From assembly GCF_900103505.1 (NCBI RefSeq), contig NZ_FNIA01000007.1, forward strand, positions 1 through 64,000: a stretch of 64,000 bases of DNA. Direction: 5' to 3'. This document shows, in pieces, positions 441-6,452 of the stretch (position 1 is the stretch's first letter; every line of letters starts with the position of its first letter). The translations under genes and the position numbers were made by a program. The notes beneath the pieces are model-generated. The model was given only the letters and a program-made list of their open reading frames with translations, did no database searches and was not told the origin of the DNA. Source of the DNA: Haloarchaeobius iranensis. GTDB taxonomy: Archaea; Halobacteriota; Halobacteria; Halobacteriales; Natrialbaceae.

Positions 441-872
441 TCAGAGACCGCGTTCGTCCGCGAGCAGTATCGACTCGATCTTCGAGAGCGCACGCCGGCA
501 GACCGGAACGTAGCCCGCAGCGAGCGGCGGAATCTCGAAGACGACGCGGCACCGGTCCTCGCCGACCTGCTCGACGCGATGGCCGGTCGCCGGCAGCTTC
601 GCCACGTCCCACGTCCACCGGCCGTCGCCGCACGTCGTCACCTCGTAGGGGACCCAGAACGCTCCGAGGACGCTGACGCTGCCGTGACTTCCCTCGGAGA
701 TGAACCGGGTGGGGGCCGTCACGTCCTCGACGGTCGGTCCCCACTCCGGCCAGCGCCACGTGTCGGTCAGCAGCTCCCACGCGCGGCGGTGGTCGACGGC
801 CACCTCGCGAGCGACCTCGATGCGGCGACCGTCGGGGGTCGAGCCGAGCCGGACCGACGTTCCTGCAGACAC
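441..872 (-). CDS. SRPBCC (START-like/polyketide cyclase) family protein
   Basis: A 143-residue protein with the layout of the SRPBCC ligand-binding fold: an N-terminal strand (RRIEVAREVAVD), helix HRRAWELLTDTWRWPEWGP, later strands, and a long C-terminal helix. Members bind hydrophobic ligands; the substrate here cannot be told. A TATA-like GCTTATCC (minus strand, near 897-904) lies about 27 nt before the ATG, which supports this start and a leaderless transcript. The short inverted repeat CACAC-TGCG-GTGTG at 877-890 lies between them. It is divergent from the ABC operon. Confidence 0.8.
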   Translation of the reverse strand: MSAGTSVRLGSTPDGRRIEVAREVAVDHRRAWELLTDTWRWPEWGPTVEDVTAPTRFISEGSHGSVSVLGAFWVPYEVTTCGDGRWTWDVAKLPATGHRVEQVGEDRCRVVFEIPPLAAGYVPVCRRALSKIESILLADERGL

Positions 873-1001: not shown

Positions 1002-1922
1002 ATGATAACGGTCGAGGACCTCCGCAAAGAGTACGGCGGGTTCGTCGCGGTCGACGGCAGCACGTTCTCGGTGGACAGTGGCGAGGTCTTCGGCGTCGTC
1101 GGGCCGAACGGTGCCGGCAAGACGACGACGCTCAAGACGCTCGCGGGGCTCGTCGAGCCGACGAGCGGGACGGTCTCGGTCGCCGGCCGGGCGGCCGACG
1201 ACCCCGAGATGCGTCGCAACCTCGGCTTCCTCCCCGAGGAGTCCCCGCTGTACGAGGAGATGACGGCCAACTCCTACCTCGAGTTCTTCGCCGACCTGTA
1301 CGACGTTCCCGACGACGTGGCCGCCGAGCGCATCACCGAGGCGCTCGACCGGCTCGACCTCGAACACCGCGAGCGCCGTATCGGCGACATGTCCAAGGGG
1401 ATGAAGCGGAAGGTCGCCATCGCCCGGTCGTTGGTCAACGACCCGGACGTGCTCATCTACGACGAGCCGGCGTCGGGGCTGGACCCGCTCACGACCAACT
1501 ACATCATCGAGTTCACCGAACAGCTCGCCGAGCAGGGCAAGACCATCGTCTTCTCCGCGCACAACCTCTACCACGTCGAGAGCATCTGCGACCGGGTCAT
1601 CGTCATGAACCACGGCGAGATAATCGCGCGCGGCACGCTCGACGAGATCCGGCGCGAGCACGGTTCGACCGAGTACCACGTGTACACCGACGTGGAGCTG
1701 GACGCCGCCGAACCGGCCGGGGACGAGCGCTACGAGTCTGTCGTCGGCGACATGGACGCCGTCGAGGCGCTCCGGTCGCAGGCCGCCGCGCTCGGCGGGT
1801 CCGTCGTGGACATCCAGACCCGGGACCCGAGCCTGGAGGACATCTTCCTCGACATCGCGGGCGAGACGCCCGAGCAGGCGAGCGAGGGCGAACGCGACCG
1901 GACCGTGGAGGCGGAGACGTGA
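1002..1922 (+). CDS. ABC transporter ATP-binding protein (ABC-2 exporter type)
   Basis: A 306-residue nucleotide-binding subunit. Walker A is GPNGAGKTT at residues 34-42, the signature region is MSKGMKRK at 130-137 (the usual LSGGQ is replaced by MSKGM, common in ABC-2 type exporters), Walker B is LIYDEP at 151-156, and the switch histidine is near 187. It powers the two permeases downstream, the first of which overlaps its stop codon (GTGA). The cargo is unknown; this class exports drugs, lipids, peptides, or Na+ in the Nat family. Confidence 0.95.
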   Translation: MITVEDLRKEYGGFVAVDGSTFSVDSGEVFGVVGPNGAGKTTTLKTLAGLVEPTSGTVSVAGRAADDPEMRRNLGFLPEESPLYEEMTANSYLEFFADLYDVPDDVAAERITEALDRLDLEHRERRIGDMSKGMKRKVAIARSLVNDPDVLIYDEPASGLDPLTTNYIIEFTEQLAEQGKTIVFSAHNLYHVESICDRVIVMNHGEIIARGTLDEIRREHGSTEYHVYTDVELDAAEPAGDERYESVVGDMDAVEALRSQAAALGGSVVDIQTRDPSLEDIFLDIAGETPEQASEGERDRTVEAET

Positions 1923-3820
1923 CGCGGGGCTCGCGCCTCACCGCAGTCACCACCCGACTTCGCTCGGTGCCGTCCCGACTCCGCGACCGCTGGCCGCCAC
2001 TGTCCCCCCGGAAGACCCTCCGCATCGCTCGCTGGGAGGTCGAGAAGAGCGCCGGGACCATCGACAGGCGGACCGCGGCCGTCGCGCTCCTCATGCTCGT
2101 CGTCGGCGGGCTCGCGGCGCCGGTCGTCATCGCGCAGGGTCCTGGGCTCGACGACGGCATCTACCGCGTCGGGGTCGAGCCCGGCGACCCGTACTACGAG
2201 GTCGTCCAGGCGAGCGACAAGTTCGACGCCCGCCCGGGGAAGGCCTCCGCCGCCGCGCTGAACGGGGGCGAGATCGACCTGCTCGTCACCGACCGTGGCC
2301 CCATCATCCCGCGTTCGACGCGGAAGGGGCAGGCGGCCTACGCCGAGTTCCGCTCGGCGGTGGTCGAGTACAACGACGGGCAGATGCATCTGGAGGACAA
2401 CCAGAGCGCCGCGTTCCCCGTCGCAGTGGACGTGTTCTACGAGTCACGCGGCGGCTCTAGCTTCGCGCCCGACGGCGGAACCGACGACGGAGCCGGGAGC
2501 ACCGATGGGACCGACGACGACGGGAGCGGCACCAGCACCGGCGGCGACGGGTCCGACACGGGCGAGGACGGAGCGGCTGGCGGGGGCGGCACCGACGCTG
2601 ACGGCGACGACGGTGTCCCGGCCGCGAACCTCGGCGGCACCGGCGGCTTCGGCGGCGGCACCAGCTCGGGCGACCCGAGCAGCATCAGCCCGCCGTTCCC
2701 GTTCAGCTCGCTCGTGCTCGCGTTCCTGTTCATCGTCCCGATGAACTTCGTCATCCAGGCCTACGGGAGCACCATCATCAACGAGCGCATCAACCGTCGT
2801 GGCGAGCTGTTGCTCGTCGCGCCCGTCTCCCGGCGGGACATCATCGCGGGGAAGACGCTCCCGTACCTCCTCGGGCTGGTCGCGGTCACCGTCGGCATCG
2901 CGTGGGCCATCGGCGGCGGCCCGGCCTCGGTCGGCGCGGTCATCCCCATCGCCTTGCTCTTTCTCGCCTCGACGTTCGTCGGCGGGATGTTCGCGCGGTC
3001 GTTCAAGGAGCTCACGTTCGTCACCATCGCGGTGTCGGTGTTCCTCACGTCGTACGTGTTCGTGCCGGCCATCTTCACCGACGTGACGCCCATCGCGCTC
3101 ATCTCGCCGTTGACCGTCGTCGTGATGGACCTGCAGGGACAGTCGGTGGGACTCGGCGAGTTCACGTTCGCCACCGCGCCGTTCCTGCTCACCTCGCTCG
3201 TCCTGTTCACGCTCGGTGCGGGCACCTACCGCGAGGAGGACATGTTCAGCCAGCGCCCGGTCCACCGGAAGGCGCTCGACGCCATCGCGACGCGTGTCCG
3301 GAGCGTCGGGTCGGTCGCTCTCGTGACGATGCTGCTGCTTCCGTTCGTTTTCCTCGCGGAGCTGCTCGCCATCGCGCTCGTGTTCATCCTCCCACGCTCG
3401 GTCTCGGTCCCCGCGCTGTTCCTCACCGTCGCGGTCATCGAGGAAATCGCGAAGAGCATCCACGTCTACGCCGGCTTCGAGTACGCGCGGTTCGAGCGGT
3501 CGAAGCGAGCGGCGGTCGTGCTGGGTATCGCGAGCGGCGTCGGGTTCTTCCTCGCGGAGAAGCTGACGCTGCTCGTCCAGCTGGTCCAGCTCCAGACGCT
3601 CCCGGAGGGCCAGAGCGCGTTCCCCGACGCGGCCGTCGGGGGTGTCGACCCGCTGGTCGCGCTCGGCCTGCTGGCGCTTCCGCTGCTGTTGCACACGGTC
3701 ACGGCCACCCTCTCCGCGCTCGGCGCACAGCGGTCGCGGCGTGCGTACCTCGGCGCGTTCTGCGTCGCCGTCGCCGTCCACCTGCTCTACAACCTGGGGG
3801 TGTCCGGCCTTGTCGCGTGA
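1919..3820 (+). CDS. ABC-2 permease fused to a PrsW-type intramembrane protease domain
   Basis: A 633-residue membrane protein starting at a GTG that overlaps the stop of the ATPase gene. Residues about 30-430 form an ABC-2 permease: a first membrane segment near 55-72, an extracellular loop with an Asp/Gly/Thr-rich low-complexity stretch at about 180-250, then five or more further segments. The C-terminal part, about 450-633, matches the PrsW glutamic intramembrane protease pattern: EEIAK at 508-512, FFLAEK with Glu near 547, LLLHTVTATLSALG with His592, and VHLLYNLG with His621. In bacteria PrsW cuts anti-sigma factors. Here it is fused to the exporter, so processing of cargo or of a partner is plausible but inferred. 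Confidence 0.85.
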   Translation: MTRGSRLTAVTTRLRSVPSRLRDRWPPLSPRKTLRIARWEVEKSAGTIDRRTAAVALLMLVVGGLAAPVVIAQGPGLDDGIYRVGVEPGDPYYEVVQASDKFDARPGKASAAALNGGEIDLLVTDRGPIIPRSTRKGQAAYAEFRSAVVEYNDGQMHLEDNQSAAFPVAVDVFYESRGGSSFAPDGGTDDGAGSTDGTDDDGSGTSTGGDGSDTGEDGAAGGGGTDADGDDGVPAANLGGTGGFGGGTSSGDPSSISPPFPFSSLVLAFLFIVPMNFVIQAYGSTIINERINRRGELLLVAPVSRRDIIAGKTLPYLLGLVAVTVGIAWAIGGGPASVGAVIPIALLFLASTFVGGMFARSFKELTFVTIAVSVFLTSYVFVPAIFTDVTPIALISPLTVVVMDLQGQSVGLGEFTFATAPFLLTSLVLFTLGAGTYREEDMFSQRPVHRKALDAIATRVRSVGSVALVTMLLLPFVFLAELLAIALVFILPRSVSVPALFLTVAVIEEIAKSIHVYAGFEYARFERSKRAAVVLGIASGVGFFLAEKLTLLVQLVQLQTLPEGQSAFPDAAVGGVDPLVALGLLALPLLLHTVTATLSALGAQRSRRAYLGAFCVAVAVHLLYNLGVSGLVA

Positions 3821-4937
3821 CGGCCCGCCGGTCCACCACGGCGGCGACGACGACGGCCCGACGGGAACGCGGAACCGACGCGCGTCGGTCCGTGCCCGCC
3901 TCGCCATCGCCAAGCGCGAGGTCGCGTCGCTGCGCTCCGAGAAGACCATCGTCCTCGCGCTGCTCATCCAGCTGTTCGTGGCGTCGTTCTCCTCGTTCCT
4001 CGTCGTCGGGCTGGTCTCGCTGTACGACCCGGGGAGCGTCGAGGGCTACACGCTCCAGATGGCCGTCAGCGGCAACGCATCCGACGAGGTCGTCGAGGTC
4101 GTCGACGGCGACCCCAGCATCGAGGTCGTCCAGTACCAGACGCCGGCCGACGCCCGCGAAGGGTTCCGGAACCGCCGCGTCGACGCCGTGATGGTCGCGA
4201 CACACGCCGACAACGGCACGGTGGCGGTCCAGGCCACGGTGCCGGACGAGAACCTGCGGACGACGGTCATCATCGTCCAGGTGCGGGAGACGCTGGGGGC
4301 GATGGAGGAGAACCTGCGGCAGGAGTACCGGACCAGTCTCGACCGGGCGGTGCTCGACGTCCCACCCAAGCAGGGGTCGAGTCCGTACTTCGGCTTCACC
4401 TACACCGTGCTGGTGCCGCTGTTGATGTTCCTGCCGGTGTTCATCTCCGGCTCCATCGCGGTGGACTCGCTCACCGAGGAGAGCCAGCGGGGGACCCTCG
4501 AACTGCTCCGGGTCGCACCCGTCACGCTGGGTGATATCGTCGACGCGAAGCTGCTCGCGACGGCGACGCTCGCGCCCGTGCAGGCGGCGCTCTGGCTCGG
4601 CCTGCTCTGGTTCAACGGGACGGCGATCTCCAACGCGCTGGTCCTCGTCGGGCTGGTCGGCGCGCTCGCCGTGCTCGTCGTCTCCGTGGGCATCGGCATC
4701 GCGCTCGCGGCCGCGGACCGACGGCAGGCGCAGTTCCTCTACTCGACGGGCGTGCTCGGCGCCGTCACGGTCGCCGGCCTGCTGCCCGAACACCCCGCGA
4801 ACACCGTCGCTCGGCTGGCAATCGGCAGCCCCGGCGAGTGGACCTGGGCGTTCGTCGTCGTCTACGCCTGTCTGGGCGTCATCGCGTACCTCGGCACCAG
4901 GCTGGCCGTCGGGTTCATTGACCCGGAAGGCCTCTAG
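3810..4937 (+). CDS. ABC-2 type permease, second subunit
   Basis: A 375-residue membrane protein. No ATG or GTG lies before the conserved N-terminal part, so TTG at 3810-3812 is taken as the start; it overlaps the previous gene by 11 nt. The order is a basic N-terminal segment (LAIAKREVASLRSEK), a first membrane helix, an extracellular domain of about 160 residues, then membrane helices including LEF-type motif TLELLRVAPVTLGDIVDAKL, as in ABC-2/NatB permeases. It pairs with the permease-PrsW protein. Its stop overlaps the convergent next gene's stop in the shared palindrome CTAG. Confidence 0.88.
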   Translation: MSRDGPPVHHGGDDDGPTGTRNRRASVRARLAIAKREVASLRSEKTIVLALLIQLFVASFSSFLVVGLVSLYDPGSVEGYTLQMAVSGNASDEVVEVVDGDPSIEVVQYQTPADAREGFRNRRVDAVMVATHADNGTVAVQATVPDENLRTTVIIVQVRETLGAMEENLRQEYRTSLDRAVLDVPPKQGSSPYFGFTYTVLVPLLMFLPVFISGSIAVDSLTEESQRGTLELLRVAPVTLGDIVDAKLLATATLAPVQAALWLGLLWFNGTAISNALVLVGLVGALAVLVVSVGIGIALAAADRRQAQFLYSTGVLGAVTVAGLLPEHPANTVARLAIGSPGEWTWAFVVVYACLGVIAYLGTRLAVGFIDPEGL

Positions 4938-5404
4938 ATGTTCTGGTAGAACCAGGGGAGGACCTTGAAGTAGAGCGCGACGACGAAGCCCATGAACCCG
5001 ACGGCGACCCCGAGCATCCCGAGCACCGGCAGCACCTGCGAGTCGCCCCGGCCGGACGTGTACCGGTACACCTCGTAGTCGAGCGTGCGCGTCGTCGTCC
5101 CGGTGTCGTCGGTGATAGCGACGGTCACGGTGACGTTGCCCGTCTGCTGGAACCGGTAGCTGGCCTGTCTGGTGGTCGCGGTCGAGCCATCGGGGAACGT
5201 CCACTCCACGGAGACGTTCCCGGTCGCGTTCGTCACAGACACGTCGAAGGTCGACGTCGCGTTGTAGACGGCCCGTTCCGGCGCCGAGACGGTGACGTTG
5301 GGGCCGTCGTCGGCCGCCTGGGCAGGCGTGCCCGCAACCGCGACACCCACAGCACAGCCCAGTAGACAGCACAGTGCGAGGAGGGTATTCAGATACGTCG
5401 ACAT
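4934..5404 (-). CDS. Secreted PKD-domain protein with C-terminal membrane anchor
   Basis: A 156-residue protein with a Sec-type signal peptide (MSTYLNTLLALCCLLGCAVG, cut probably after the Ala-rich TPAQA near residue 30). It has one beta-sandwich PKD-like domain at about 35-115, with the motif VEWTFPDGSTATTRQASYRF followed by GNVTVTVAITDDTG, and a C-terminal transmembrane helix at about 127-150. The topology places the PKD domain outside the cell. It is convergent with the ABC operon, overlapping stop codons by 4 nt. The role is unknown; PKD domains usually mediate protein or sugar binding. Confidence 0.8.
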   Translation of the reverse strand: MSTYLNTLLALCCLLGCAVGVAVAGTPAQAADDGPNVTVSAPERAVYNATSTFDVSVTNATGNVSVEWTFPDGSTATTRQASYRFQQTGNVTVTVAITDDTGTTTRTLDYEVYRYTSGRGDSQVLPVLGMLGVAVGFMGFVVALYFKVLPWFYQNI

Positions 5405-5477
5405 GTATCGGCCTGCTCCCAGCCCGGAAATAAGCGTTCCGCTCACGTTTTTGCCTCCGCGGTTCGTGGTGCTCGCC

Positions 5478-6452
5478 ATGGAGTACACGACTCTCGGTGA
5501 CACCGGGCTGGAGGTCAGTCGCATCTGCCTCGGCTGTATGAGCTTCGGCGACCCGGACTGGCGCGGCTGGGTCCTCGACGAGGACGAGGGGACGGAGCTC
5601 GTCGACCGTGCGCTCGACCTCGGCATCAACTTCTTCGACACCGCGAACATGTACTCGGACGGCGAGTCCGAACGCATCCTCGGCGAGGCCCTCGATGGGC
5701 AGCGGGACGAGGCCGTGGTGGCGACGAAGTGCTACTTCCAGATGGACGAGGACGACCCGAACTCCGGTGGCCTCTCGCGGAAGGCCATCGAGCAGGCGCT
5801 CCAGAACAGTCTCGACCGGCTGGGGATGGACACCGTCGACCTCTACCAGATCCACCGCTGGGACGACGACACGCCCATCGAGACGACGCTCCGGGCCCTC
5901 GACGACGCCGTCCGACGTGGCCAGGTCCGCTACGTCGGCGGCTCCTCGATGTGGGCCCACCAGTTCGCCGAATCGCTCTCCACCGCCGACAGCCTCGGCA
6001 CGGAGCGATTCCTCACCATGCAGAACCACTACAACCTGCTCTACCGCGAGGAGGAGCGCGAGATGCTCCCGCTCTGTGCGAAGGAGGACGTCGGCGTCAT
6101 CCCGTGGTCACCGCTCGCCAGGGGCTACCTCGCCCGCCCCCACGAGGAGTTCGACGCGACGGAACGCGGCGCGCAGGACGAGCACGCCCGCGGTCACCCC
6201 TACTTCGAGGGCGGCGGCCGCGAGATCAACGAGCGCGTCCAGGAACTCGCCGCCGAACACGGCGTGACGATGGCCCAGATCGCCCTCGCGTGGCTGTTCT
6301 CGAAGGACGTGGTCGACGCGCCCATCGTCGGCACGACCAGCATCGAGCACCTTGAGCAGGCCGTCGAGGCGCTCGACGTCGACCTCAGCCACTCCGACGT
6401 CGCGTGGCTAGAGGAGCCGTACGAGCCGGTCCGGGTCTCCGGGCACGAGTGA
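5478..6452 (+). CDS. Aldo/keto reductase
   Basis: A 324-residue NADPH-dependent oxidoreductase of the AKR superfamily, cytoplasmic. The N-terminal MEYTTLGDTGLEVSRICLG and GINFFDTANMYSDGESE (Asp54, Tyr59), the catalytic Lys84 in ATKCYF and His126 in YQIHRWD give the full tetrad. The C-terminal cofactor site includes MAQIALAWL and PIVGTTS. The length is typical of the YajO/general stress protein 69 group. The start is the ATG immediately before the conserved N-terminus. The substrate is not predictable. Confidence 0.92.
   Translation: MEYTTLGDTGLEVSRICLGCMSFGDPDWRGWVLDEDEGTELVDRALDLGINFFDTANMYSDGESERILGEALDGQRDEAVVATKCYFQMDEDDPNSGGLSRKAIEQALQNSLDRLGMDTVDLYQIHRWDDDTPIETTLRALDDAVRRGQVRYVGGSSMWAHQFAESLSTADSLGTERFLTMQNHYNLLYREEEREMLPLCAKEDVGVIPWSPLARGYLARPHEEFDATERGAQDEHARGHPYFEGGGREINERVQELAAEHGVTMAQIALAWLFSKDVVDAPIVGTTSIEHLEQAVEALDVDLSHSDVAWLEEPYEPVRVSGHE

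Follow-up and report, generated by a model that had tools for sequence, protein, structure and literature searches.

Results

The window, i.e., the whole 64,000-nucleotide stretch of Haloarchaeobius iranensis DNA that was analysed, carries a cassette of three overlapping genes that encode an ABC ATPase, a permease-protease and a second ABC-2 permease (Table 1). The ATPase stop and the permease-protease start overlap by 4 bases, and the start of permease 2 overlaps the end of the protease gene by 11 bases; the TTG start assigned to permease 2 is backed by close relatives, and in homologous locus L004 an in-frame stop lies just upstream of it. A first-pass annotation had read the middle gene as a single permease-protease frame with EEIAK, FFLAEK, H592 and H621 as its motifs, and we found the frame uninterrupted over its 633 aa and each motif at the residues claimed. 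The same annotation had placed an ATPase before this gene and a second permease after it, and both of these assignments were borne out by Pfam matches in the window and by comparison of 101 homologous loci, in which the ATPase usually adjoins the permease-protease and permease 2 lies directly downstream of it in 100, namely in 80 of the 81 from haloarchaea and in all 20 others. In haloarchaeal loci the ATPase is upstream and on the same strand as the permease-protease, while in most of the other Halobacteriota loci (L134-L153) it is upstream but on the opposite strand, in divergent orientation. This switch between the two groups is a rearrangement within a conserved cassette.

Table 1. Features of the cassette and its immediate neighbours, in positions of the window.
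Feature	Position	Strand	Evidence
Frame of 89 residues running off the window edge	2-268	-
Polyketide-cyclase/SRPBCC-like protein	441-872	-	PF10604 E=7.4e-5, below cut-off
Three-gene cassette	1002-4937	+
ABC ATPase, 306 aa, DrrA/GldA-like, with DrrA1-3 C-terminal domain	1002-1922	+	PF00005 E=1.8e-31; PF13732 E=1.8e-7
Permease-protease ORF, 633 aa, GTG start	1919-3820	+	No internal stop
ABC-2-like permease half, residues 1-445 (TM1, ectodomain, TM2-TM6)	1919-3253	+	Six TM helices
Folded part of ectodomain, about residues 74-174	2138-2440	+	AlphaFold2 pLDDT mostly 80-93 for residues 81-160
Asp/Gly/Ser/Thr-rich linker, residues 177-259	2447-2695	+	AlphaFold2 pLDDT < 50
Glutamic intramembrane protease domain of PrsW type with five TM helices (residues 446-633 and stop)	3254-3820	+	PF13367
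Motif 1, EEIAK, residues 508-512 (EExxK as in PrsW)	3440-3454	+	E508, E509 and K512 invariant, 61/61
Motif 2, FFLAEK, residues 543-548	3545-3562	+	E547 invariant; K548 98%
Motif 3, H592	3692-3694	+	Invariant, 61/61
Motif 4, HLLYN, residues 621-625 (HxxxN)	3779-3793	+	H621 invariant; N625 95%
Second ABC-2 permease (permease 2), 375 aa, TTG start	3810-4937	+	PF12698 E=5.5e-17; PF12679 E=7.9e-13
PKD-domain protein	4934-5677	-	PF18911 E=1.7e-10

No conserved cargo or substrate gene was found within the 5-kb flanks of the family loci, in which nothing beyond ordinary neighbours is conserved. In the window, an SRPBCC-like protein is encoded upstream of the cassette; up to 29 of the compared loci have a protein of this kind close to the cassette, and a functional link is not evident. 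The frame of the PKD-domain protein, which has an apparent membrane segment at its C-terminus, converges with permease 2, and the frame at the window edge resembles, by eye, the N-terminus of a haloarchaeal transposase.

The PrsW family corresponds to Pfam PF13367 and MEROPS M82. When residues 454-633 were searched alone, PF13367 matched with 31.6 bits (E=1.4e-7) and, in a six-frame genome search, the same C-terminus scored 29.8 bits, the curated cut-off being 23.5 bits. Of the PrsW and CPBP profiles that had been proposed as a check on this region, the former exceeded its cut-off and the latter did not. Membership in the CPBP/Rce1 family (PF02517) was rejected, since the motif is EExxK, not EExxxR, and that profile matched 1 of 61 members at E=0.8. 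The full-length hmmscan of the 633-aa protein returned sub-threshold ABC-2 matches only, with PrsW not reported, and an NCBIfam scan of the full-length protein yielded zero matches; PrsW was likely lost from the full-length scan because of the low-complexity loop or the speed filters of HMMER. Across the family, hmmscan reported PrsW for 4 of 63 full-length members versus 28 of 61 isolated domains, two sets that overlap but differ in membership and to which different E-value limits were applied. Many of the fused relatives found throughout the phylum likewise scored over the cut-off of the PrsW HMM.

Alignment of 61 C-terminal homologues, including 20 loci outside the main haloarchaeal set (identity: median 39%, lowest 20%), left E508, E509, K512, E547, H592 and H621 as the sole invariant columns out of 188. 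The chance of six random columns coinciding with the PrsW catalytic set is about 2e-11. Next most conserved were Y624, P588, K548, F543 and P475, each at 98%. PrsW is defined by an EExxK motif together with a histidine on helix 5 and HxxxD/N on helix 6 (PMC4602095), and by its profile score and each motif tested the C-terminal domain belongs to this family. Since the catalytic six are the only columns held invariant among these sequences, the alignment argues for retained catalysis, and the pattern is the one expected of a working enzyme, not of extra helices. The covalent joining of a PrsW-type (EExxK) module to an ABC-2 permease, as first proposed, is therefore upheld by the profile score and the six invariant residues.

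The permease half is described here as ABC-2-like, since its own HMM scores are sub-threshold (PF12698 and PF12679, 16.8 and 17.3 bits in the full-length hmmscan). Among relatives, PF12698 matches 42 of 63 family members at E<=0.01, with a best E of 4e-8. Features of an ABC-2 exporter permease are present, namely six TM helices, an adjacent ATPase and a partner permease, and the half contains a conserved cytoplasmic region, ERxxRRGELLLVxPVS..DI..GK, and shares an ELL.VAPV motif with permease 2. When the full model was compared to solved structures with Foldseek, no match was significant, and ABC transporters were among the better weak ones, including NosY (prob 0.98, weak E-value), the fold match falling on the permease half.

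Between TM1 and TM2, AlphaFold2 predicts a folded ectodomain part whose residues 81-160 form mixed helix and strand, and four residues, N152, A164, A165 and P167, are invariant among 63 aligned full-length haloarchaeal homologues. The Asp/Gly/Ser/Thr-rich stretch that follows had been suggested to act as a handling platform. Its composition shifts from D/G/S-rich in haloarchaea to P/E/S-rich in other Halobacteriota, and its median length is kept at about 75-81 residues across both groups. Considering the low pLDDT, the shifting composition and the kept length together, this loop is a disordered linker of halophile-type composition, conserved in approximate length and not in composition, and we rejected the platform role on the grounds of disorder and compositional change.

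For the full protein, AlphaFold2 gave a mean pLDDT of 77.8, and for the isolated protease domain a pLDDT of 90.5 and a pTM of 0.86, with a short helix and membrane helices. Hydropathy and charge fit eleven TM helices for the whole protein, TM1-6 in the permease and TM7-11 in the protease, which places E508/E509 in TM8, E547 in TM9, H592 in TM10 and H621 in TM11. In the model, predicted helix 493-521 carries EExxK, 529-558 carries E547 and 578-605 carries H592. Going by the predicted helix limits, E508/E509, E547, H592 and H621 lie in four consecutive helices at about 0.38-0.52 of the membrane depth from the outer side, and this similar mid-membrane depth is consistent with a single site in the modelled domain. 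Sequence and profile searches of solved structures gave zero matches, and for the protease domain Foldseek gave no statistically significant match; APH-1 of gamma-secretase had the top probability among the matches listed (prob 0.63 and 0.54), a weak resemblance (TM 0.44, E=1.2 at prob 0.63).

A survey of haloarchaeal genomes for the same fusion, which had been recommended from the outset, found it in most of those surveyed: the full-protein query had a match in 219 of 292 genomes of the class at E<=0.001, a count that includes a few weak matches, possibly to other permeases. Searching with the protease domain gave a match in 136 of 295 genomes of the phylum, and outside the haloarchaea the matching frames were mostly 500-700 residues, the length of the fusion. 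Both halves were in one frame in 19 of the 20 non-haloarchaeal loci examined and were split between two frames in L134. The permease-PrsW fusion is thus widespread and old within Halobacteriota, and the view that such a linkage is unusual gives way to a phylum-wide one that takes in most haloarchaeal genomes surveyed and many other Halobacteriota. An origin of the fusion by frameshift or misassembly was ruled out, the frame being unbroken in many independent genomes. Four haloarchaeal homologues (L006, L009, L010 and L011) each contain one TAA in the aligned stretch, probably ahead of the true start and close to the N-terminus, which is not conserved.

Two stand-alone PrsWs, C50 and C59, coexist in the same genome, and both have E-N as the motif 2 dipeptide versus E-K in the fusion. 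In a 61-row tree, one branch with support of 100/100 separated the fused domains from the stand-alone ones. On this sampling the fused domains form one clade apart from the stand-alone PrsWs, a topology consistent with a single fusion event.

Discussion

The C-terminal module resembles PrsW of Bacillus subtilis in its EExxK, second glutamate, mid-helix histidine and HxxxN, which are spread across four consecutive helices. It differs in having five helices and being attached to the C-terminal end of an ABC-2 permease, and in forming its own clade relative to the sampled archaeal stand-alone PrsWs. The anti-sigma substrate of known PrsW is, moreover, impossible here: to our knowledge, archaea use TBP/TFB and are without a sigma-70/anti-sigma system, so the canonical PrsW job of anti-sigma cleavage cannot apply as such.

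The closest known architecture is that of NCBIfam NF041647 (ABC permease/CPBP protease), which is of the same class and size (636 positions) but carries a CPBP-type module where the protein described here has a PrsW-type one. We rejected membership in NF041647, as the protein had no match and 0 of 247 phylum genomes exceeded the 435-bit cut-off; 8 of 63 family members matched weakly, the best at E=3.2e-5. Joining a glutamic protease to an ABC permease is therefore already known from NF041647, and the permease-PrsW fusion has PrsW in place of the CPBP module. We found no description of a PrsW-ABC fusion in the open-access literature.

Other systems offer more distant comparisons. The C39 domain is a cysteine peptidase on the cytosolic side of a different type of ABC exporter, one with its own ATPase domain, and it has no homology to PrsW. 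The C39 class does include exporters to which a peptidase is joined (PMC6959990), and PCAT1 and its kin resemble the present protein, by analogy only, in that a covalently joined peptidase couples processing to export. Polymorphic toxin export dependent on PrsW has been proposed, with PrsW fused to another module as a processing conduit (PMC3482391); in that case PrsW is N-terminal to a toxin domain, whereas in the present protein a transporter is the fusion partner and a toxin is absent. APH-1 of gamma-secretase belongs to the same fold superfamily as PrsW and CPBP (PMC6588880), so that its likeness to the protease half rests on the literature and, weakly, on Foldseek; within its aspartyl protease complex this subunit has no catalytic role, and it is not an ABC subunit.

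Comparative sequence data thus establish how the domains are arranged and that both the catalytic set and the cassette are conserved. We give an even chance to the reading that the three genes encode one membrane machine, a heteromeric ABC exporter in which an active PrsW-type protease cleaves a membrane-embedded substrate, the product then being moved outward. Permease 2 probably pairs with the permease-protease to complete the export path. A peptide, or a TM segment of a membrane protein, would enter the membrane-level active site putatively formed by E508/E509 with E547, H592 and H621, and would be cut in or near the membrane, after which the ATP-driven permease pair may carry the cleaved product either across the membrane or out of it. 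By analogy, the logic would be that of peptidase-containing exporters, with the peptidase intramembrane instead of cytosolic. We infer that the protease is catalytically active, that the permeases pair, that cleavage is coupled to transport and what kind of substrate is involved, and the protease could act on behalf of a partner that has nothing to do with the transported cargo. The initial suggestion, an exporter that also processes either what it carries or a membrane partner, still gives the best reading, but the searches turned up neither a substrate nor a conserved flanking cargo gene. More tentatively, and with our doubts outweighing our confidence, the cassette may represent a phylum-wide archaeal exporter with a built-in glutamic intramembrane protease subunit, in which cleavage is coupled to ATP-driven expulsion in a general envelope function of Halobacteriota.

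Several other functions could be imagined for the same proteins. The ABC module might sense membrane stress or a peptide, with the fused protease cutting a separate membrane-anchored regulator or partner, in which case the output would be signalling, not export. B. subtilis PrsW sets a precedent, as it cleaves the anti-sigma factor RsiW and has a crucial part in resistance to antimicrobial peptides (PMC4602095), and in Haloferax volcanii the PrsW-like HVO_0408 (a fused or stand-alone form) rises upon deletion of the rhomboid protease RhoII (PMC9263693). The lack of a conserved cargo gene in the flanks also favours such signalling, but a conserved neighbouring regulator was not seen there either, and it is not obvious why a pure sensor would need to retain the ATPase alongside both permease halves. 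Considering also that archaea are without anti-sigma factors, we regard a sensing role as unlikely. Maturation of surface proteins or lipoproteins, in which the protease would trim C-terminal anchors or signal-peptide-like segments and the ABC module would extract or flip the product, would suit the near-general presence of the cassette in haloarchaea, as for a housekeeping envelope function, and a CPBP relative, the myxosortase MrtX, does cleave C-terminal sorting signals for surface anchoring (PMC11980579). However, myxosortases are CPBP-type and the present domain is PrsW-type, and we consider maturation distinctly unlikely.

Broad conservation without linked cargo would also suit a general substrate, as in membrane quality control, where the protease would cut orphan or remnant TM segments and the ABC pair would clear the fragments; we judge this quite improbable. 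Finally, the C-terminus could be extra helices or a dead protease that merely stabilises the permease, and the full-length Pfam and NCBIfam scans without a protease match, together with the absence of a significant solved-structure match, might be taken to point that way. A purely structural role, however, would not fix exactly the six catalytic residues as the only invariant positions in 61 divergent homologues, nor does it agree with a PrsW HMM score over the cut-off. We therefore reject this explanation, which had been the stated alternative to the protease assignment, as highly improbable.

The RefSeq label of one member reads only "ABC transporter permease subunit". Standard annotation of full-length proteins overlooks the protease half; the family is therefore probably under-counted and mis-labelled, and this blind spot for the PrsW half is perhaps caused by the low-complexity acidic linker. 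If the exporter reading is true, cleavage inside the membrane and ATP-driven transport would be coupled in one polypeptide, a new mechanistic link. Since the cassette is near-general in haloarchaea, with relatives in Halobacteriota, and its catalytic residues are fixed, it presents a good target for knockout in H. volcanii.
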